Shown here: piece by piece, positions 23,189 through 36,515 of the stretch
Layout: each line of letters begins with the position of its first letter
Numbering within the stretch: position 1 is the stretch's first letter
Assembly: GCF_019649055.1 (NCBI RefSeq)
Contig: NW_026570234.1
Location: 744,001-808,000 of the forward strand
DNA from: Paramacrobiotus metropolitanus
Lineage: Eukaryota; Tardigrada; Eutardigrada; Parachela; Macrobiotidae
DNA length: 64,000 nt
Direction of reading: 5' to 3'
Translations under genes and position numbers: made by a program
The notes under the pieces: generated by a model
The model's database searches: none
What the model saw: the letters and a program-made list of their open reading frames with translations, nothing else
What the model was told of the DNA's origin: nothing

Positions 23189-25430
23189 ATGATTTTTCAC
23201 AATTTAATACGAAATGACCTAAGCAACGTATTGCGGAATGTTTTGAATGTGATCATTTTATTTACGTCTCTCTCCAAAGCACAATTGAGTTCTCCGCCGC
23301 AGAATTACCCTTCCTGGTTCGTAATCCCTCAACGGCTAGCTGGATACCCATTATGTAAGCGGTAGTACAGTAACCTTAACGTTTTGGCCACGCTGTTTTG
23401 TTGTTGAAGATAGTAAACTACCCTTCTGGTGCTTATCTTCTTTCAACATAAATGTCAAAATGGTTTTTATCGGTCTAAACTGATTTTCATAATGTTTTCA
23501 CAATGTTCGCGGTGCGAGTGTGCTTACACTTCCACACAGTTCCGGATAAATGTTATATGTATGAAAGGTCAACACAAACTCTCTGATAACGCGTTACTGC
23601 CTTACTGGTATACCATGCAGTTGGATCATTTTGTTGGGGTAAATGGGTATTCACTGGACTTTACTTAAACACTGATTGCAGATTTACCACAGCAGCCAAT
23701 TTTTGCTGCCAGCGGAACAAGCGATTATGTTCGATCATGGGGCGATTTCACATTCAACAATTTTTATGATTCGGTAATACTACTTGCTGCGGCAGCCTGC
23801 TGGAGTCAGTTTTCGAATTAACGGTGCTGTTACTCGTGCATTAATTTAATAGTTCTTTTACTTTTTTTTAATGCAAAAAATACAGTACTTTACCGATATT
23901 ACAATAATAAGTAAAAGGGTAACGTCACGCTTTCCCAGATTAAGGTTTGAAAAATGTAATATAAGCCGCCTTAACAAAACAAATTAGTAACGATAATTTG
24001 AGATTATTATTCAGGGTGGCTACAATGAACCGGATTCGGATCCTTTCTATGATCATTTTCAAGAGTATGTAGCCGGCAAATGGACACCTCCTCCGGCGGG
24101 AGCAGCGCCGGCCGACCAAGCGGCAGAGGCACGAGCAACTCGCGAATTCGTGGATAAGAACCAAAAACGTACTAAATCTGCAAAAGCCAACCGTGCCTTA
24201 GCAGAATCTCTTGCAGAGGAACTGGTGCAGACATTAATGAAGATTGTAGCTGCCAACGCGAGTAGCGCATCGCCTACGAGCGCTGGACAAGTCGGTGGTG
24301 CCGCAAGTATAGCGTCGCTTTTGATGCCCGCGTTGGCGAAATTAGCCGCTAATTCTCGGCCAGGAAACGCATCAGCTGTCACACCCAATACAACGGACTC
24401 TTCGTCGCTTAAGAGTAATAATACTTCTATAACAGCGGACACCACATCTCAGCAAAACAGCTCTACGGGGTTATTAGTGGATTCCTCCCCGAAACTAGCC
24501 GTTGCAAGCGTCCCTGTTGCGAGGAATATCAGCGAGAATCCGCAAGTCACAGAAGATCTCTTTCAACTGGCACTTTCATGGCCCCCATTATCGGCTCAAC
24601 GGGGCGTTATTGCATTGCCCAACCCAGTTGGCCCGCGGCCGGTGGAAATCCTGAACGATTTAACGGGCGGTCGTCTTGCCGATGTGGAGCGGCGCGAACT
24701 TTTACCAAACAGCGATGGAAATGCAGTCAGTAATGCATCAACCTTTCTAAACAAGGATTTTGCCAACCTGGTGCGATTAGGTTTGAATCGCATGGGCAGC
24801 GCAGCACAAGTTCCTGTAGGGAGCAACGTCACCCGTATAATGCATAAGATCGTTGTTCCGGCCTATTTAGCCGACTTTGCTGTAGTGCCGTTTGTGTCAC
24901 CAGCCAATTTAACTAACGGTGCCGGATCTCCTAGCGTGACCGGTGACGAGAGTGTGACCTACAGCCCGAAGAAAAACAGCAACAGCGACAGTCTACAACC
25001 TGTTGATCAACAAACACTGTTGGCCAATATGCTGGCCATCATGCAGTCGCAGAATAAGAAGATGCCCAATCCAGATGCGGTGTCTACCGTTCCTCCATTC
25101 AATTTAATGGACACTGCACAGACCCAGCTAGGTGCAGATGATACTGAGGCACGAGGTCAGCAGACTGGGGGCTTTCCGTTCTTTACGGAAGTGCAGCCGA
25201 CACCGAAGCCATTCAAACCGTTGCGCCCGAGGCCTTTACCGACAATGACCAATCGTGTGGGACAAGCGCGTGGGGAGCTGTGCGCGGTGGCCTTAGCTTC
25301 GGGTCGGCAGTATTTAGGCGTCTGTGTCAGTAATGCCGTCGTACCGACGCAGTGTGATGGAATGGGGATTAAAAAGTCCCAGTTTTGTAATCCAACAGCG
25401 TCGTGCTGCTTTTCGGTTTCTAGTGAATAA
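23189..25430 (+). CDS. Secreted protein with one C-terminal six-cysteine CLIP-like module (paralogue 1)
   Basis: Three exons (23189-23354, 23682-23773, 24015-25430) give 557 aa. A hydrophobic segment ending at ...SLSKA is the likely signal peptide. The long middle is Ala/Ser/Asn/Thr-rich, with several NxS/T sites, and has no cysteine until the end. The last 50 residues hold one module with spacing C-x13-C-x9-C-x10-C-x5-CC (first Cys about residue 509), including GVCV and SCC. The exon-1 junction (phase 1, Y split, then LPQQPI) matches that of the next gene (LPNQPI), showing tandem duplication. Cysteine order resembles the CLIP domain of arthropod protease cascades, but spacing differs and no protease domain exists. 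Function unknown; extracellular matrix or immune binding would be guesses. Confidence 0.8.
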
Positions 25431-25443
25431 ATAAAAAAATAAA
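25426..25443 (+). terminator. Overlapping poly(A) signals
   Basis: One AATAAA (25426-25431) overlaps the TAA stop codon of the preceding gene and a second lies at 25438-25443. This implies a very short 3' UTR. Confidence 0.5.
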
Positions 25444-26941
25444 CTTATCCTGGTAAACTTGGGTGTTCTTTATTGGCATAAATACTTCCTGTAGATCTTT
25501 TGTCCAGTCCTGTCCATACTTTTGATTTTGTTGCAAGTACATACTTAATTATGTATAGATATTTAGGTTTGGATGTAGAAGTCGGCAGATACTGTTAAGT
25601 ATGCGCTACAGCGCCGTTAGTTATGATTTTCTGTGATATGAGAAATCAATAAAATTCAATTTATTTCGCGTGATACAGTCAAGAACTTACTATATGTGTA
25701 TCTCAATGATTCTCACACTATACCTGTAGTATCACTCTCACAAGAATTTGAGAGAGTATAACAAATAATATTATTATGACCTCAAATTCAGCCTTAAGAG
25801 AAAAACACAATATGAAGAAGGATTTGTTCTTGTACTGAGCATTTCTGGATATACCGCAGTATTCTCACGCTTCATGCTTCAGAACAATAATCGTACTGAT
25901 TCGTACATAATCACCAGTATGACCGTCAGGAACTGCAAAAATGACGGTATTAATCATATCAGCTTCTGGGTTTGTGAGCGAAAACTGATTGCGCTTTCGT
26001 CCATGAAGAGAACAATTTTTAACCAGAGCTCTTATTGTCGTATATTCATTATTTGCGGCAAACATTTTGAGCTGATTGTAAGTGCGAACGTCTTTTGATA
26101 AAGCGACCTGTGGAAATACTGTAGTAATGGGATTTTTTGATGGACATTAATTGTTGTGGTGGTACTGGCCATTTCCTAAGTGGGCCAGTAAATTTTAGTC
26201 ACGCTTTGTTTTGATTACGATATTACAAAAATGTTGTGTTGTGTAACGCATAACATATTGTACAACGACTGAAATCTTTTCAACGTGAACTAATTAATGC
26301 CAAGGGCTTGACCATCAATTCTTTTGGTAACAGAAATTGTCAGGATGCGACTCCATCATTAGCTCTTCGGCAGCGCCGGCTTTTGTGAGCACGCAACCAT
26401 GGTTACCTTAGACGGACGTAATTGCTCAATTGCCGAAGAAGATTCTCTAACGTTTCGGCAGAAAATAGCGGAACCACACTAATATGTGTTGAATGATTTG
26501 ACCGGCACTTTATACTGACAAGCAAATATGTGTACCAATAAGTGGCAATATCGCTTCTGACCTCGTGTGAGTAATTAACTACAGCGCCATTCTTTAGTTG
26601 TCCATGCCCAATACTTTTTAGTTGTACTGTGCTAACTTGAAAGTGAAGGGCAGTCACCTGCAACAATATGATGGCCAAATCATTTTTCGTCACAATTTTT
26701 GCCGCTTTGAAAACTGTACTGACCTGATCGACAGTCGTAGCTCTGTAATCTGTTAAATTACATTATATTTGTCATAAGTTCACCCGCACTCTGCGTTGTC
26801 TGACAGAAACAGTTCGTTTGCGAAGATCATTAATTTAAATATAAATTACAACGCTAATTTTGATACCGAAATAAATTCCCATAAAATGCCTCAGGGCCAG
26901 GAGGTTGGCTTGGTACACCGATACAGTTACAGCGGCGTAGG
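25431..26941. other. Intergenic with an unresolved possible minus-strand gene
   Basis: Two minus-strand open stretches look protein-like. One runs from 26693 to 26403 (GHGQLKNGAVVNYSHEV... with a good donor after LSNYVRL). The other runs from about 26100 to 25865 after an acceptor (ttccacag) and ends VRISTIIVLKHEA. The reading phases of this donor and acceptor do not match, and I found no ATG start exon. It may be a real gene with an unseen exon or a decayed one. Confidence 0.3.
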
Positions 26942-29900
26942 ATGATCTGCATAATATCTCAACAGATTTCCGGGATTCTTGGATTATTATTATCGAGTAC
27001 ATTCTTCGCTGTTGCTGCCCAGAATTTAAGCTCCCAGTATGGTTACAGTAATCGGTATGGATATAATGGCGGTGGGACATACAATCGCCCAAGTCGACCG
27101 GCGCTCCCACCGCGTCCGCCCTACGACCTCACTATACCCTCGTACATGTATGTTCCTGAAAGGATTACAGGGCATATGCAATGTAAGTTGACGTTTGCCG
27201 GTCAAGACTTATCTTGCATTAAAAACTTAATTAGCGCATTTGAAAATATGAACAATCAGATCAAGAAAAGTATGTTTTAAAATGTTCGATATGTATACCT
27301 GCTCGCAGCTCATCTGTTAGAGCAAAAATCAAACGGTATTATTTGAAAATACTGCTGCCAAAAAGTTTTCAGGGTGCAGAATTTAAATTATACGTAAATA
27401 TTTTGTCGACATTAATAGCACTGAAAATTTAGAATAGTTTCGAACACTAAAAGTCAAAGCTTTTACTGTGCATTGAGTACACAGTAATTATTACCCTACG
27501 GATCTATACAACGGAAGTCGTATGCTGATTGGCAGCATTGTCGACGGGACTGTCGTGTACGTTGCTTTCCTAGCAACTACTGTTTTACTTCTTACTTCTT
27601 TCTGTTGTACTTTCTGTCATTCTACCTGCTGCGCAGTTGCTGTTCACATCATTAATTATGTAGTATTAATTAACTATTAAAGTATTACTTATACAATACT
27701 TCACATTGGCGTGAAGAATTCGAATTCATGCTTACTAATTTCTCCTACGACTACACTCTACGGTCATAATCTGCCATGGGAGGGATCCGATGCCGATTCC
27801 GCATGCACTCGCCTGGCAGACTGCCACCGTCCCACACCTTTTCGGCAGCGGATGCCCTGCCACCCTTTTCCCCACGATGCTGGTGGATATTATTTACGGC
27901 TGGTACCGCCCTGCCAGTACCATAGCGCTACCAACGGATATTCGTTCCGTGTAGTTGCCTGAACGTGCATTGCCAAACTGCTCAACGTAATGCCAATCTT
28001 CCTTCTGGATGATCTGGATGGAGCGAATTCTTCGTAACGCCCTGATGACCTTGCAGAGCGCTGTTTCGCACTACACGTCATTTTCGGGAATTTCCATTCA
28101 GTTGCTGTTGGTTGTTGTCATGGCCTGCGTTCACCATTGTTCTATGCAGCGTTTGCTCTGCAATCCAGTAATTCCGTACAGTACGTATCCTTGCTTACCT
28201 CCTTCCGCATTCCGCAGAACAACCTGAACGCGTTATGTACGAATGTACAGTACGTCCTTTCCTGGAGTACAATACACAGTATCGTACAATGTTACACCGT
28301 TATTCGAGCCGACTACGCAATGATTAAATCCTTCGTATGGCGCCTTACACTTTGAAGTTGGATAACCTTGCTACTACGGTTCGTATGGTTTACACCGTAT
28401 TTCCTGCACTTGGATGATGCGATGAATTTCAACTCGCATGTCTGTTGCCGTTCCAGTTCGGTTGCCTGGATCCGGGATCGTACTCCTATATGCACCTTAC
28501 AGTGCAGTGCAATACTTTTACTTATACGGATTAATTCTAATAGCTACTTTCATAATGGTACAGTTCGCGTACGCTACTATAATTACTTCCTATTAATTTT
28601 TACATTCCTTGCAAATTCAATGTACGTGTAAATTACAGTTCCGATACTTAATTCCGTATCACTTTCGATACGTGGGGACGAGTTGTCGTGTACGTTGCTT
28701 TCCTAGCAACTACTGTTTTACTTCTTACTTCTTTCTGTTGTACTTTCTGTCATTCTACCTGCTGCGCAGTTGCTGTTCACATCATTAATTATGTAGTATT
28801 AATTAACTATTAAAGTATTACTTATACAATACTTCACAGGGACTACTTGAGTACTGCCGGTGCGCGGGAACTTAGTTGAGCAACTAGGTATGCGACGTGC
28901 CTTTATTATGACTCTTAACCTGCTCGAGCACTGTCATGCAAAACCCAAGTCGTGTTGTCTCGTATGTTGCTCCTGCCAACTGCCAAAGATGCCTTGACGT
29001 GCGATGTAGAGAGTTCTGAGATTTATCTGGAAAAATTTCTACAAATTGCTTCACTGAATCACGAATGGGTGTTAGAATTTTTGGTTTTGATTGTAATGGT
29101 TTTTGATTCAGCTTATCTGTATGCCGCTGTTTCGATTTCCGATCTTTTTGGTCGTTTTCATATGCCCGTTAATCCGCAAGTTAAAAAAAGAGATTGCACA
29201 CGATCAGCAAGCAATTAATAACAATTAATTTATCTTGACCCTGAAAAACACTGCTCTGATACTCTTGACCTTGAACCACGAGGGTGCTATCCGCGCATGT
29301 CATGCTCACAAAAGAGAGAAGAATACGAGCCGTGTTGACCTGAATTCATTGTAATTACAGATCTCCCTAATCAGCCCATTTATTCGGCGGAAGGAGTTGG
29401 TCCGTATGTCGGACTGTGGACATTATATCAGAACGAGTTCCACCAAAACGTTCCAGCAGTCGCCCAACCAACATTTGACCCTGTTTACGAGAACCCTCTT
29501 GCGTACATAGACGGGCATCCCGTGACCCCAAGTACGTCAGCCGCCGGAGCCGGGACTAACCCTGTTGATGTGAGAGGTTCCTCCGCTCAGGCATCTCAGA
29601 CTTCCCAAACCAATCCAAAACTGCGAGGCCCAGCGCTAGCATTCATTGATCCGACATTAAATAAAAACGGTGCCAAAGAGAAATTTCGACCCTGTGCAGC
29701 CAAACCAGGCAGTCTGCGGTTTGGTGTCTGCGTGAGTGATTCTAAGGTCACCGAGTTATGTGTGCGAAAAGTTGTTGTTCGGTCAGTTATCTGTGGTAAA
29801 AGTCAGTCGTGTTGTCTGGACAATGATACCGAAAATACAACAACTAGTGTGGAGTCAGCGCCGTCATCCCATCGAAAAATTCCTTCTTTTGCAACGTCTT

Positions 29901-30277
29901 TAAACACTGATGCAACTGATCAACTTGTACCCAGTGACCAGTCAGATTCTTTCAAATCTTGCCGGTCATCGAGCGGATTCACGCAGTTTGGTATCTGTGT
30001 AAATGACAGATCTGTGACAACGCTATGTACGAATAAAATTGTGGAACGATCGGTGGACTGTGCTAAAGCTCAGTCGTGCTGCATTGACGGAAGTAATTCA
30101 TCCAGTATCTCTAATACTCTATCCGACCAGGATTTAGAGGACAATAATTTGCCAACGACCGTTACTAGTGTCCCCACCCCTACAACAACTTCTACGGCCA
30201 GACCAGTGACTAATCGGTTACGAGGAAGCATGCGGAGAAAAGTATCTGCGTCACAAAGTCCCCCTTCTACAGGTTAG
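26942..30277 (+). CDS. Secreted protein with two six-cysteine CLIP-like modules (paralogue 2)
   Basis: Two exons, 26942-27182 and 29361-30277, are joined across a 2.18-kb intron (phase 1) to encode 385 aa. The signal peptide ends near FFAVAAQ. The next segment is Tyr/Gly/Pro-rich (RPALPPRPPYDL). Exon 2 opens with LPNQPIYSAEGVGPYV, homologous to the same position of paralogue 1. Two modules follow, both C-x11-C-x9-C-x10-C-x5-CC, with GVCVSD/GICVND and QSCC. They are separated and followed by Ser/Thr/Pro linkers. The stop is GGT TAG; the sequence there also resembles a donor (gttagt), so a further exon cannot be excluded. The next gene has its own signal peptide. The long intron is mostly explained by an inserted LTR element. 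Confidence 0.78.
27551..27705. repeat. Left LTR of the miniature element
   Basis: 155 bases beginning tgtcgtgtac and ending acttcaca. The same sequence lies at 28684-28838. Confidence 0.9.
28684..28838. repeat. Right LTR of the miniature element
   Basis: A base-for-base copy of the left LTR as far as I can read. It is followed directly by the GGGAC duplication. Confidence 0.9.
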
Positions 30278-30727
30278 TAAAGGCTTGAGGTCAGTGAAGT
30301 AGTAAATACTGCCATACGGCATCCGTATAACAAAATGACAGAAAACAATTCCCAGATTGTAACCAGCCTCGAACCCTGGAGTTGTGACTGAAAACTGAAA
30401 GTTAACAAACACACTGGAAAATTTTGCATAAGATGATTGGCTTGTCAGCAATTCAGAGTTAGCCGAGTAAAAAATTAAGCGGGGGCGCGTTGACAAGGAA
30501 CCACATTACGAGAACATTCACGTAGAGATGTAGACAATAAATAATGGCCACTTGGCTATATTTTAATTTTACTCTTGTAATAAGCTTAGCTGTGGGCGAT
30601 AATTATTCGCACGGATTCATCCGACAGAAGATAACATGCTGCGCTTCTTGTCGCAGCAGCGAAACCTCCTACGGTATATCAGATAAAGTGCTGAGATCTG
30701 CGCTTATGTAGCTTTGAAATAATAAAA
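30278..30727. other. Spacer between paralogues 2 and 3
   Basis: About 450 bases without a supported coding exon. It should contain the promoter of the next gene, but I see no clear element. Confidence 0.35.
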
Positions 30728-32299
30728 ATGGTACGAATAGCGATAAAGCGGAATCGCTTTACAAATGCTTTCTATCTGCTTTTGTTTCTAGTTCTTATGA
30801 CCAGTGTCCATGTTGCAGATCAATCTGTCCCAATGAAGTTCACACCGTGCGTGTCATTTCGTGACTCCAAATTAGGTATCTGTGTGCCGGATAACATTCT
30901 GGGACAGTTATGCGTAGACCAGTTCATTACGAAATCCGCCAGTTGTTCATTTGCAACGCAGTCCTGCTGCATAGAAAATGGAGCAGCTACAGCGCCGGAC
31001 AGCGATCAAGACAGTTTTGCTTTACAAGCATCGATACCGCAGCAATCACCCAACGTCCGATTTAGATTCGGTTCAGCCGGTCAGGGAAACCCGCGTACAA
31101 GATTTCCCGGGTCTGTTCCTGCATTCCCGGTTTTTGCCGAAACCGGCAGCAGCACTTGTTCAGACGGTGATCTGCAACCAGGAATTTGTGTCGCCAACGC
31201 CATGATTCCGACACTGTGCATAGGAAAAGCATTATCCCAATCATCGCAATGCCGCAGTGGTCAGTCGTGTTGTACCGATCTACCGGTTCGCGCTACGACC
31301 CCCTTCAGTCGCATGCTACCTTTCTTCCGACCTGCCGTCACGACGACAATGTCGCCCGCGAATTCTTTCATTCCATGCAGAAATCCACAGATGCCCTCCG
31401 TGTTAGGAATTTGTATAGACAATCAATTCCAATCGCAATTTTGCAGCGGGAAGTTTAGCACTGCCAGCCAAGACTGCTATGAGTTCCAATCGTGTTGTTT
31501 AGACGCGGCTCCTCCATTGGCCCAAGTGGCACCGACCACACTGGCACCATCCGAATTTGCACCCGACGGCATTTCCCTCACCAATTCTCTGGACTGTACA
31601 ACACCGCAACATCCACTGCAGTCCGGCCGTTGTGTTCCTGACTCCATCGTCCCATCTGTATGCGGTGGAAAATTTATATCGAAAAGTAAAGACTGTGGTG
31701 CGGCACAGACTTGTTGTACGGATCCCATGGCATCATTCGCTGACCAATCGAATGAACTCAACGGGCGTGCCGGCTTTGGTTTCTTCCGGATGACGCCACC
31801 AACCACAACTACACGACGACCCACTACGCGTCCGCTACTCCAGTTTACTGCTGCATCAATTTTTCAGCAGTGTATCCCCATTGTGAACAACTTTGAGGTT
31901 GGTCTATGCGTAGACGAAAGCCAAGTGAGTACACTGTGCGCCGGTCGGCTTGTTGCGCCCTCCCGCAGCTGTACATTTATGCAGTCGTGTTGTTCGTACT
32001 TTCCGGAAGTGATAGCTCCGTTAACACCGCCCCCGACAACCACCACCACCACAACGACTACGACGGCGACTACCACACCAGAACCGGCTAAGACGCAGAG
32101 TCCATTTTTAAAAACACCGAATAATCGAAAACTGAATTACTTCCGACCTTGTGTGGCCACCAATCCAGACGGGATAACGACGTTGTTAGGCGTTTGCATC
32201 CAGGAGGAATCTGCCATGGATTACTGCACTGGAAAAGTTTTATCACCTTCGGATGACTGCGAATACACTCAGTTATGCTGCAGCGAAAATACAAGGTGA
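30728..32299 (+). CDS. Secreted protein with six tandem six-cysteine CLIP-like modules (paralogue 3)
   Basis: A single intronless frame of 523 aa starts with a long signal peptide (hydrophobic core FYLLLFLVLMTSVHVA). Six modules follow, beginning about residues 38, 140, 216, 292, 378 and 475. Spacing is C-x9to14-C-x9-C-x10-C-x5(6)-CC, and the second Cys is always preceded by Gly-x (GIC, GRC, GLC, GVC). C2-C3 (9) and C3-C4 (10) never vary. Linkers are Pro/Thr-rich, one a run of nine or more threonines, suggesting O-glycosylated spacers. Nothing else is present: no protease, chitin-binding or membrane segment. Canonical CLIP domains have a short C2-C3 and long C3-C4 gap, so this is CLIP-like at most. 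Stop codons of this gene and METTL23 are about 290 bases apart. Confidence 0.88.
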   Translation: MVRIAIKRNRFTNAFYLLLFLVLMTSVHVADQSVPMKFTPCVSFRDSKLGICVPDNILGQLCVDQFITKSASCSFATQSCCIENGAATAPDSDQDSFALQASIPQQSPNVRFRFGSAGQGNPRTRFPGSVPAFPVFAETGSSTCSDGDLQPGICVANAMIPTLCIGKALSQSSQCRSGQSCCTDLPVRATTPFSRMLPFFRPAVTTTMSPANSFIPCRNPQMPSVLGICIDNQFQSQFCSGKFSTASQDCYEFQSCCLDAAPPLAQVAPTTLAPSEFAPDGISLTNSLDCTTPQHPLQSGRCVPDSIVPSVCGGKFISKSKDCGAAQTCCTDPMASFADQSNELNGRAGFGFFRMTPPTTTTRRPTTRPLLQFTAASIFQQCIPIVNNFEVGLCVDESQVSTLCAGRLVAPSRSCTFMQSCCSYFPEVIAPLTPPPTTTTTTTTTTATTTPEPAKTQSPFLKTPNNRKLNYFRPCVATNPDGITTLLGVCIQEESAMDYCTGKVLSPSDDCEYTQLCCSENTR

Positions 32300-32587: not shown

Positions 32588-33668
32588 TTACAATAACTCA
32601 AACTTGAACAGAAAAATATCACTGTGAACAGTTCCTGGAAGACCACTACGAGCAATATCACATTTATCGGCATCAAAACTGCTCAACGGCACAATTATCA
32701 ATTTTAACGAAAATCGCTGGCACAAAGATTTCAGTCTAAGATTCCAGTCTTCATCCCGCAACTGGTACGAACAATAACAAGCACATTTAAACCTTTCTAA
32801 AAAGAAGCGAACTGTCATGAAAACTCGATCAAAATCCTTCTCAAAAAATAAAACATCCGAAAGGAAAACATAATCGAGGGGCGGTAAACATAGCATCGCG
32901 GAATTCACTTGGCCCCAGTTGAGGTTTACCGTTTTGACGCTAACGCCATTCCGCTCGCAATTTCGTCGGCAACATGCCACGGCTGCGGACTCCACGGAGG
33001 ACGACCAAGGTTGGATATCGCACTCCGACACAATTACCCGACAGCCAAGCTTAGCGGCGATTATGCTTGGTAAGCCAGTTCCTGCACTGATCTCCAAGAT
33101 CGTACAACCGGAAATAACGTTCCGGTGGTGCCAAATAAATTGGGCCATAACTGCCGCGCACGGCCAGGTGTAGCAGTGCATGTGCGCATTCAACGAAGAT
33201 GTTGAGTGCTTGCTCGAAAATCCGTTGTTTCCTTGCAAGCAAGTTTCCGCCAACGCAGAAATTGTTTCTTCGATCTCCACATTGAGATAATCCGGCATAA
33301 ATCTGACCAATGGAGTTTCGGATTCCGTAAGTGGCTTCGAAAATCTCTTGCCTACGAAGACTGGTTTATACAGATAGGCTCACTGGTTACAGAATACAGA
33401 TTAATCTACAATATATGGTAGCCATCCGCTGCTTACAGGTTCTCGAAAGATGTCCATATAACCATTATAATGACTTTCAAATCATAACCGACGGTAACGT
33501 ACCTTCCGAATCTAAGGATTTAGAAAGCGTTTGCGACTGTGGCTTCTCAAACGCGATAGGCGCAGAAGTTGACGGTTCCCGATCCAATTCATGAAGCTTT
33601 CGCTTATTGTTAATTCCGAAATAAAATTTCCGAGCATACAAATCTCTGGTACGTTTTACTGACTCCAT
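32588..33668 (-). CDS. METTL23: Methyltransferase-like protein 23
   Basis: A seven-beta-strand SAM-dependent methyltransferase; the mammalian protein is reported to methylate histone arginine and acts in nucleus and cytoplasm. Exons 33503-33668 and 32588-33351 (phase 1) encode 309 aa. Matches to human METTL23 include MHCYTWPCAAVMAQFIWHHR, the SAM loop ILEISAGTGLPSIIAAKLG, the NLNWGQ strand, PLDYVFLSDVLFFEKDF, and the C-terminal PLSSFDADKCDIARSGLPG. The first exon is a charged, low-complexity N-terminus absent from the human core. A further upstream exon is possible: an ATG frame at about 33902 (MAQASKIELRKFPP), spliced through a 57-base intron, would reach this exon in phase and move the start codon upstream. 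Confidence 0.92.
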
Positions 33669-34152: not shown

Positions 34153-36515
34153 ATGTTAAAAAGTAAGTTGAAAATTCGTTGACTTTGGTTGTGTTATTAG
34201 TTCTGATTATTAGCGTTCCCTAAAGCAGGCATAGTTGTTGGGAAATGGGAACATGTTACGAATTGGACCTAACCATATGTTTGTACTCAGAAGTTCCGAA
34301 CCGGACTTTTGCCATTTTAAACTATTTATGATTTTGACCGTTTATGATTTTATCGGTTTAATATTTACCCCTTTCAACGTGGTGCTTGCATTTATTACTT
34401 CCTTTTTGACAGTGACAGCTGTACGCAACCTGGAAACGAATTTGCATTTTGTTTTACTGCGGCAGTTTGTGATTTTTCGTGTTGTTTGATTTTTAGACAG
34501 AGGAAATAAGCCTACGGTAGAAGACGATGATGATATCCAATGCGTTTTTATCGAAACAGCGAAAACACGAAAACCAGCTGAGCCGTTGAGAGCACCGGCA
34601 GCTAAACGGAAATACTCCGCACCAGGCATTCCCAAGAGACAGAAAGCATCTCATAATGCTGTACAAAAAAGCATCAAGGATTTTTTCGGTTCAGCAAAAG
34701 TCTCGAATGGGGACGCGGTCAGGCAGTCGCACGCTAAAATGGAATCTACGATTTCGAGGGAAACAGACGGTTCTGGCAAAGCATCTTTTGTCGCGACTGT
34801 CTCTTTATCAGAAACGTTTCCGTTGGCGGTTTCCTCTTCAGGATCGTTCAAAGAAGAAATTGATCCCGTCCGTGGCGATGATTTGCTAACAGACAATGAC
34901 GGTTATCTGTCTGGCGATGATCTTATTTCCAGTGTTCCTGAAAGTGTATTTACTGACATTGTTACGGGAAGCCCTACCGGCCAAACGACGCAGACAGCCA
35001 CATCTAGCGCATCTTCCGAAGTGGACTCAAAACTGAATTTCCGCTCCCGAAGTTTTCCTTTTCCTCGGTCTTCGGGATTAGCCAAACGGAAATGTCCTTT
35101 CTATAAACTGCTTCCCGGGACAAATTTTTCAGTTGATGCATTTAATTTTGGCGAAATTCCTAATGTTTTTGGATATTTTTTGAGCCATTTCCATTCGGAT
35201 CATTACATCGGATTGACGAAGAGATTTTGTCGGCCAATTTATTGCAGTGCTATCACTGCCCGCTTGGTTGCTTCTCGACTGGGAGTGGACGCTCAATGGG
35301 TTCGCATGATAAAATCTTCCGAACGGAATAAGTTTTAAAATTAGTGCAATACAAAATTTTCCCAGAGGAAAAGATGTACATAGATAGACTGTAGATTATG
35401 AAAGTCTCTGCTGGCTGTTACATTGCTTAAATATTGTTATTAATAGTTGCATTTTAAATATGTTATTAATACTTAAATATGGTATTAATAGATTGAAGCA
35501 GGTCAGGTTACTTTTTCGGTCTGTACAATAGATTCTGAAAATGCAGATTTCTTTCTAAATTCATTCTTTAATTCTGCGTGCATACGCATGCCTTTCGCTG
35601 AATGGATACATGTATTTATTTTTAATGCTGCAGATCAATGCTGTGCCGATGGATGTCCCTGTTACGGTGGATGGGATCGAAGTAACGCTGCTGGAAGCCA
35701 ATCACTGTCCTGGTTCCGTATTATTCCTGTTTCGTATGCAGAACGGAACAGTGTATTTGCATACCGGCGACTTTCGTGCCGATCCGTCAGTTATTGGAAA
35801 AAATCCTTTCCTGCAAAATCTCAGAAATATCTCTAAGTTGTATCTCGACACCACATATCTCGACCCATATTACGATTTTGTATCTCAGGATGCTGCGGTG
35901 GAATTCGCTGCCGAGCTGGCCCAACAGTATGTTAAAAGGAACCCGAAAACGCTGATCATCTGCGGAACATATTCAGTGGGCAAAGAAAAAATTTTCATGC
36001 GCATTGCAGAGTGTCTCGGATGCAAAGTGGCTGTGATGAATTATAAACTGCAGTTGTTAAAATGTTTCGAATGGGAAAATTTAAACGCCATGTTGACCAA
36101 TGACTGGCAGTCTGCTCAGGTGCATGTGTTACCGATGCGATCGCTCAACCTGGCTTCGCTGGAAGAACATTTGATGAAGCACCGAAATTATAATGAAGTC
36201 CTGGCTCTTTTGCCAACCGGATGGGAGTATAACAAAAAACTGCTTTCCCTGAAAGATATTAAACCCAAGAAGATGGGTCCGGTATCTCTCTACGGATTGC
36301 CTTATTCGGAGCATTCGTCGTACCGTGAACTGGAGTGGTTTGTGAAATTTTTACGACCGAAAGAGGTTATCCCAACTGTCAACGTGGGCAATCCAAAAAC
36401 TCGACAGAAAATGCAGGAGCATCTGAGAAATTGGTTAATGGATCCCTCCAGCAGACCCAAACCCATTCTAAAGCAGAACTCCATAACGAATTTTACGTCT
36501 CCTTTTTCTGTTTAA
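34153..36515 (+). CDS. DCLRE1A: DNA cross-link repair nuclease SNM1A
   Basis: A 5'-3' exonuclease of the metallo-beta-lactamase/beta-CASP family that repairs interstrand cross-links. Three exons: a 10-base coding first exon (34153-34162), 34497-35299 and 35634-36515, giving 564 aa (human about 1,040). The second donor is gttcgc; using it restores QWINAVPMD, which aligns to human QYIHPLPLD. The N-terminus has an acidic, possibly SUMO-binding stretch ([12 protein letters not shown]) and a PCNA-binding PIP box QKSIKDFF (residues 60-67). The catalytic core shows HFHSDH (234-239), [41 protein letters not shown], the beta-[12 protein letters not shown] and PTVNVG. I see no UBZ zinc finger, which human SNM1A has upstream of the PIP box. 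Confidence 0.95.

Follow-up and report, generated by a model that had tools for sequence, protein, structure and literature searches.

To our knowledge, CLIP domains have been described solely in arthropod proteases and in inactive homologs of these. The six cysteines of the domain pair as Cys1-Cys5, Cys2-Cys4 and Cys3-Cys6. The Cys1-Cys6 span of bee clips is 30 to 70 residues, and their Cys2-Cys3 gap is exactly five residues except in the masquerade homolog; in clips of group 1, the Cys3-Cys4 gap is below 16 residues (PMC1761132). Masquerade (in Drosophila; cSPH41 in bee) consists of five clip domains followed by a serine protease homolog domain, and the multi-clip proteins described in these sources terminate in a protease or homolog domain (PMC1761132; PMC10036332). 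Here we consider a window of 64,000 nucleotides from the tardigrade Paramacrobiotus metropolitanus (contig NW_026570234.1, positions 744,001 to 808,000), in which three neighboring genes at window positions 23189-32299 encode proteins carrying nine copies of a compact six-cysteine module. On sequence grounds this module is very probably a derivative of the CLIP domain, and three of its homologs at other loci of this genome precede protease-like sequence.

The sequence-only reading of the window had described nine modules with the spacing C-x(9-14)-C-x9-C-x10-C-x5(6)-CC and a glycine two residues before the second cysteine, and every part of this description holds. A strict pattern (C-x8-16-C-x9-C-x10-C-x5/6-CC), searched in six frames of the window, gives exactly nine matches, all within 23189-32299, whereas 40 random windows drawn with matching dinucleotide frequencies contain no match. 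Among the nine, the gap between Cys1 and Cys2 is 9 to 14 residues, and Gly stands at -2 of Cys2 (9/9). The three proteins were also described as secreted, enzyme-free and rich in Pro, Thr and Ser between the modules. In agreement, each has a hydrophobic, signal-peptide-like N-terminal start (judged by hydropathy alone), Ser, Thr and Pro together make up 26%, 33% and 36% of the residues outside the modules in genes 1, 2 and 3, respectively, and a Pfam scan of four window pieces found no enzyme. Genes 1 and 3 have no Cys beyond those of the modules, and gene 2 has a single one, at its third residue; this is consistent with all disulfides of a module forming within it.

Elsewhere in the genome, three single copies of the module (3/132 modules counted) precede chymotrypsin-like sequence, at C6:1602081, C6:2121111 and C2:3449843 (contig and position). 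At C6:1602081, the module and a Pfam Trypsin match (E 4.4e-7) share one open frame of 468 aa, and the next exon matches Trypsin at E 2.9e-10; no Ser exon was found in the stretches read. At C6:2121111, a protease-like start was recognized by eye at the end of the module frame, and two exons, located some 1.1 and 2.6 kb past the module, match Trypsin (E 2.3e-4 and 1.1e-4). The last exon of this gene has 2b9l, 'prophenoloxidase activating factor', as its best PDB match (E 3.8e-7; next match 0.0011) and reads CDLDGGSPLVC, that is, DGGSPLVC at the position of the protease motif GDSGGP. The exon following C2:3449843 matches Trypsin at E 3.6e-15, and a later exon reads CTNDGGAPLTC. As translated, the downstream exons of C6:2121111 and C2:3449843 have Gly in place of the catalytic Ser, a replacement also described for clip protease homologs (PMC10540698), and bee clip homologs are listed with GDGGSP or GDGGGP (PMC1761132). 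A linker Cys and an R/I start of the protease-like part were recognized by eye in all three protease-linked frames; in bee clip proteases, a disulfide is predicted from the linker Cys (PMC1761132). We take at least two of the three genes to encode serine protease homologs similar in kind to PPAF-II and masquerade. The exons of C6:2121111 and C2:3449843 were assigned to one gene each from order and strand, with splicing assumed. Modules joined to serine protease domains, which the sequence-only reading had singled out as telling against its proposal, are seen in three homologous copies elsewhere in the genome, within a single open frame for one and by assumed splicing for two, and in none of the window genes (0/9 modules).

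PDB sequence searches with two of the module-to-protease frames gave nothing useful. The protein at C6:1602081 has a Gly-rich N-terminal part (L021:693-2096), and an exon upstream of the module on contig C107 is likewise Gly-rich (L023:2370-2975), as is shrimp PmMasSPH1. Adjoining the module-bearing protease homolog on contig C2 is a second protease-like gene with FGDSGGP (C2:3450500-3454500), a stretch in which no module of this type was found.

The window modules and the protease-linked modules are homologous, the link to protease sequence lying within a single frame in one case and in neighboring exons in two. A profile of the 117 modules on contigs C26 and C1 finds the three protease-linked modules at E 8.5e-12, 1.8e-8 and 3.4e-6 and the three window genes at E 2.1e-34, 8.7e-12 and 5.7e-7, the best of 1000 shuffled decoys reaching E 0.49. 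When sequences were shuffled with the cysteines fixed, 15/15 tested modules (nine from the window, three protease-linked and three single) outscored all 300 of their own shuffles. The likeness between window and protease-linked modules thus exceeds their common cysteines, and non-Cys residues are conserved between them. In addition, a direct search with the C6:2121111 region finds C26 modules (best E 8.8e-6).

A first search of the genome gave four matches, and a further one, with a related protein on contig C1 as the query, gave 108, of which 100 lie on C1 and C26 and eight elsewhere. Within the loci fetched, rather than as a genome-wide total, 132 full modules were counted: 91 on C26, 26 on C1, nine in the window, two on C6 and one each on C2, C68, C107 and C71. 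On C1 the cluster was covered apart from small gaps, and on C26 only the part from 1003500 onward. The count starts from 132 pattern matches, omits C1:751761 (opposite strand, low complexity, spacing 8/6/5) and adds one C71 copy; it excludes four partial patterns, namely two on C26 in which an intron probably separates off the CC, a C1 copy that has YC in place of CC, and one on C1 judged not to be a module. The exact spacing 9/10/5 is found in 114/132 modules, and Gly at -2 of Cys2 in all 132. Up to 23 modules occur within one open frame (on C26), and the copies on C107 and C68 belong to single-module Thr/Pro-rich proteins. The two C26 modules at C26:1024236 and C26:1026009 are interrupted between Cys4 and the CC, which probably lies in the next exon, placing an intron inside the domain. 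Gene 1 has a paralog at C71:511000-516500, with gene 1-like N-terminal exons and one C-terminal module. N-terminal pieces of a further paralog, with a stop in the match, are present at C26:267610 (within C26:264500-273500), and no module was found there in the 9 kb read.

A tree of the modules, built from 132 rows and only 52 columns, places the eight modules of genes 2 and 3 together (92, not starred). The gene 1 module pairs with the C71 copy (95), apart from the other eight window modules. Two protease-linked copies cluster (82), and the third groups weakly (59) with gene 1 and C71. As 79 of the 129 inner branches are open, the tree is silent on which form arose first. The rise in copy number of 1, 2 and 6 along the cluster, noted in the sequence-only reading, is correct as a count; since the gene 1 module groups with the C71 copy, it does not amount to a simple gradient.

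Compared with the CLIP domain of arthropod proteases (PF12032), the module has the same six cysteines with an adjacent terminal pair (132/132 modules, as required by the search pattern), a span of 39-44 residues from Cys1 to Cys6 in the window copies, which falls within the range of bee clips, and 9 to 12 residues between Cys3 and Cys4 across the 132 modules, as in clip group 1. It differs in its longer Cys2-Cys3 gap, its largely fixed 9/10/5 spacing and the missing hidden Markov model match. Masquerade is alike in that it has several six-cysteine, CC-ending modules in a secreted protein and does not follow the five-residue rule for the Cys2-Cys3 gap. The bee masquerade homolog is given as 5[C-LC(STr)]-SPH (PMC1761132), which by our own reading denotes five clips, each with a Ser/Thr-rich low-complexity stretch, comparable to the linkers here, and module-linked genes of this genome also read Gly for Ser. 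Unlike masquerade, the window proteins have no protease-like domain, gene 3 terminating five residues past its last CC, and elsewhere the modules are more numerous per frame; a real match to the Pfam CLIP_SPH_mas model is also missing. The three protease-linked relatives, with their module, linker Cys, R/I site and protease-like sequence, resemble PPAF-II and other clip-domain serine protease homologs (2b9l), two of them also in reading DGGSP or DGGAP at the catalytic motif, whereas the window proteins correspond to the module alone and PPAF-II is the closest match for an exon in just one of the three relatives.

The sequence-only reading had left a CLIP derivative and an independent fold side by side, and of these the former is supported. 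A separate six-cysteine fold, CLIP-like by convergence and shuffled onto protease homologs in this lineage, is quite unlikely, as it would have to account for a module that occupies the CLIP position of protease-like genes together with the linker Cys and R/I site, for a last exon in the C6:2121111 gene that is closest to a clip-bearing homolog, and for six cysteines, a terminal CC and a short Cys3-Cys4 gap that fit the clip-calling rule (PMC1761132). Nonetheless, a number of results weigh against a CLIP origin and against the separation of the module from a protease, and the first three of them favor an independent fold. The module has nine residues between Cys2 and Cys3 in 130/132 copies and 11 in the other two, and not five. 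All of Pfam-A, including PF12032 and PF18398, was scanned with window proteins, single modules and related proteins (E limit 10, or 1 in some scans): the CLIP models had no match, the best being CLIP_SPH_mas (PF18398) at E 3.7 for one of the nine modules. Clip structures are absent from the Foldseek matches, both from all eight in one list and from the best 50 of 333 in the other, and none was found by VIA-align among 24 chains. The module frame of C6:2121111 has no Pfam match, nor does the NDGGAP exon of C2:3449843 have one of its own; the PPAF-II likeness concerns one exon, and for those of the other two genes the nearest PDB entries are coagulation factor VII and acrosin; and only for C6:1602081, with its single shared frame, does the joining of module and protease sequence not depend on assumed splicing. 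Profiles from smaller sets are also less decisive: that of the nine window modules finds the protease-linked modules at 4.5e-7, 0.0068 and 0.073, with a decoy at 0.062, and that of the three protease-linked modules finds gene 3 at 2e-4, gene 2 at 0.034 (decoy 0.042) and gene 1 at 0.94.

The Pfam scans yielded no named family for the module, and in particular no named domain with the same 9/10 spacing, in keeping with the sequence-only reading. AlphaFold2 models of two window modules, made from window sequences only, have predicted local distance difference test (pLDDT) scores of 81 and 83 and agree with each other, each with four short strands and one short helix; because the module is very small, the absence of a clip from the fold lists is weak evidence either way. 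A plant defensin, the better of two PDB profile matches up to E 10 (E 0.42), was dropped, as the aligned end lacks the CC pair. Searching the genome with the Pfam CLIP model gave two matches, on C45 (19.6 bits, with a stop inside, reaching the 20-bit cut-off with its neighbors) and on C203 (18.8 bits, below it), and no clip-protease gene was seen in the frames around either. CLIP_SPH_mas gave three genomic matches, none above the cut-off.

In this genome the module occurs where CLIP domains normally stand, ahead of protease-like domains on the N-terminal side; under a CLIP origin, it would have come free of the protease and multiplied to more than 100 copies in mucin-like secreted proteins with one to 23 modules per frame, the window genes being one such protease-free set with Pro/Thr/Ser-rich linkers. 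This whole reading, of a divergent CLIP separated from its protease and multiplied into secreted proteins, is likely, though less firmly so than the CLIP origin itself. Each module may fold as a small three-disulfide unit, and strings of modules may act as an extracellular docking or scaffold element that binds clip-domain partners such as clip proteases, cofactors, or microbial or matrix surfaces, and would gather, buffer or compete for them outside the cell. The clip of PPAF-II is reported to interact with phenoloxidase (PMC4372372). Since clip-bearing homologs reportedly bind partners, a protease-free clip string could gather or compete for the same ones; by this analogy, a docking role of the protease-free proteins is put forward tentatively, at less than an even chance. 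More broadly, it is nearly an even possibility that CLIP serves here as a free-standing block, with more than 120 copies, in secreted proteins in which no protease was detected, forming a separate scaffold or decoy layer over a few clip protease homologs, perhaps in defense of cuticle or body fluid. If true, this would show an origin of protease-free clip proteins, provide single modules and long arrays from which clip-domain binding could be learned, and supply a search model for clip domains missed by Pfam in other animals. Among the matches listed in open-licence literature, there was no report of tardigrade clip domains or of protease-free clip proteins or arrays.

Other functions have been weighed, two of which are compatible with a CLIP origin. 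The modules might be rigid crosslinked beads in structural cuticle or matrix proteins, with glycosylated linkers and unlinked to protease networks. The 23 modules in one frame, the Pro/Thr/Ser-rich linkers, the single-module Thr/Pro-rich proteins and the lack of an enzyme would all suit such a role, which we regard as rather unlikely given that non-Cys residues are conserved between window and protease-linked modules and that the module is retained in protease-like genes. Direct binding of microbes, as by immune recognition or antimicrobial proteins, is less probable again. In shrimp PmMasSPH1, the N-terminal region made up of the clip and a Gly-rich part is reported to be antimicrobial, and whole masquerade-like homologs to bind peptidoglycan (PMC4372372), and Spaetzle-family matches above the cut-off occur at 15 places on nine contigs of the same genome; yet the gene 3 protein is near neutral overall (K+R 37, D+E 37), and the mud crab homolog is reported not to kill directly (PMC3665817). 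The Spaetzle matches come exon by exon, so that the genes are probably fewer than 15. Multi-headed protease inhibitors are highly improbable: small disulfide-rich tandem modules are frequent among inhibitors as a matter of general knowledge, but no inhibitor family appears in the Pfam matches of the scanned proteins, the only test made of this role.

The three gene models and their modules are collected in the table below. They give proteins of 557 aa (gene 1), 385 aa (gene 2) and 523 aa (gene 3). For gene 1, an alternative acceptor of exon 3, with the exon starting at 24003, leaves the frame likewise open, and a possible donor overlapping the stop codon of gene 2 makes the 3' end of that gene less certain. 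Genes 1 and 2 are paralogs: their common N-terminal region aligns with a local score of 130, which 0/2000 shuffles reach (best 62), and their first introns have the same phase.

Gene models and six-cysteine modules of the cluster (window positions; module spacing as residues between successive cysteines up to the CC pair)
Feature	Position	Strand	Basis
Gene 1 exon 1 (signal region, PSWFVIPQRLAGYP motif)	23189..23354	+	donor GTAAGC, open spliced frame
Gene 1 exon 2 (N-terminal region common to gene 2)	23682..23773	+	open spliced frame; gene 1/gene 2 comparison
Gene 1 exon 3 (module 1 at end, then stop)	24015..25430	+	open spliced frame
Module 1 (gene 1), 13/9/10/5	25281..25409	+	strict pattern
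Gene 2 exon 1 (signal region, N-terminal region)	26942..27182	+	donor GTAAGT
Gene 2 exon 2 (two modules)	29361..30277	+	open spliced frame
Module 2 (gene 2), 11/9/10/5	29693..29815	+	strict pattern
Module 3 (gene 2), 11/9/10/5	29960..30082	+	strict pattern; AlphaFold2 model
Gene 3, single exon (six modules, Pro/Thr/Ser-rich linkers)	30728..32299	+	open frame, composition
Module 4 (gene 3), 10/9/10/6	30848..30970	+	strict pattern
Module 5 (gene 3), 9/9/10/5	31157..31273	+	strict pattern
Module 6 (gene 3), 11/9/10/5	31376..31498	+	strict pattern
Module 7 (gene 3), 11/9/10/5	31595..31717	+	strict pattern
Module 8 (gene 3), 11/9/10/5	31871..31993	+	strict pattern
Module 9 (gene 3), 14/9/10/5	32150..32281	+	strict pattern

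Intron 1 of gene 2 contains two identical direct repeats of 155 bases (27551-27705 and 28684-28838), which start with TG, end with CA and are flanked on both outer sides by GGGAC. By this structure, the stretch 27551-28838 is a short terminal-repeat element; eight further near-full-length copies occur in the genome at 91-99% identity, and other matches cover the repeat alone. Downstream of gene 3, the cluster is neighbored by a methyltransferase gene on the opposite strand (Methyltransf_16, 32591-33379, minus strand), and beyond it by a DNA-repair metallo-beta-lactamase (DRMBL) gene at 35559-36512 (plus strand).

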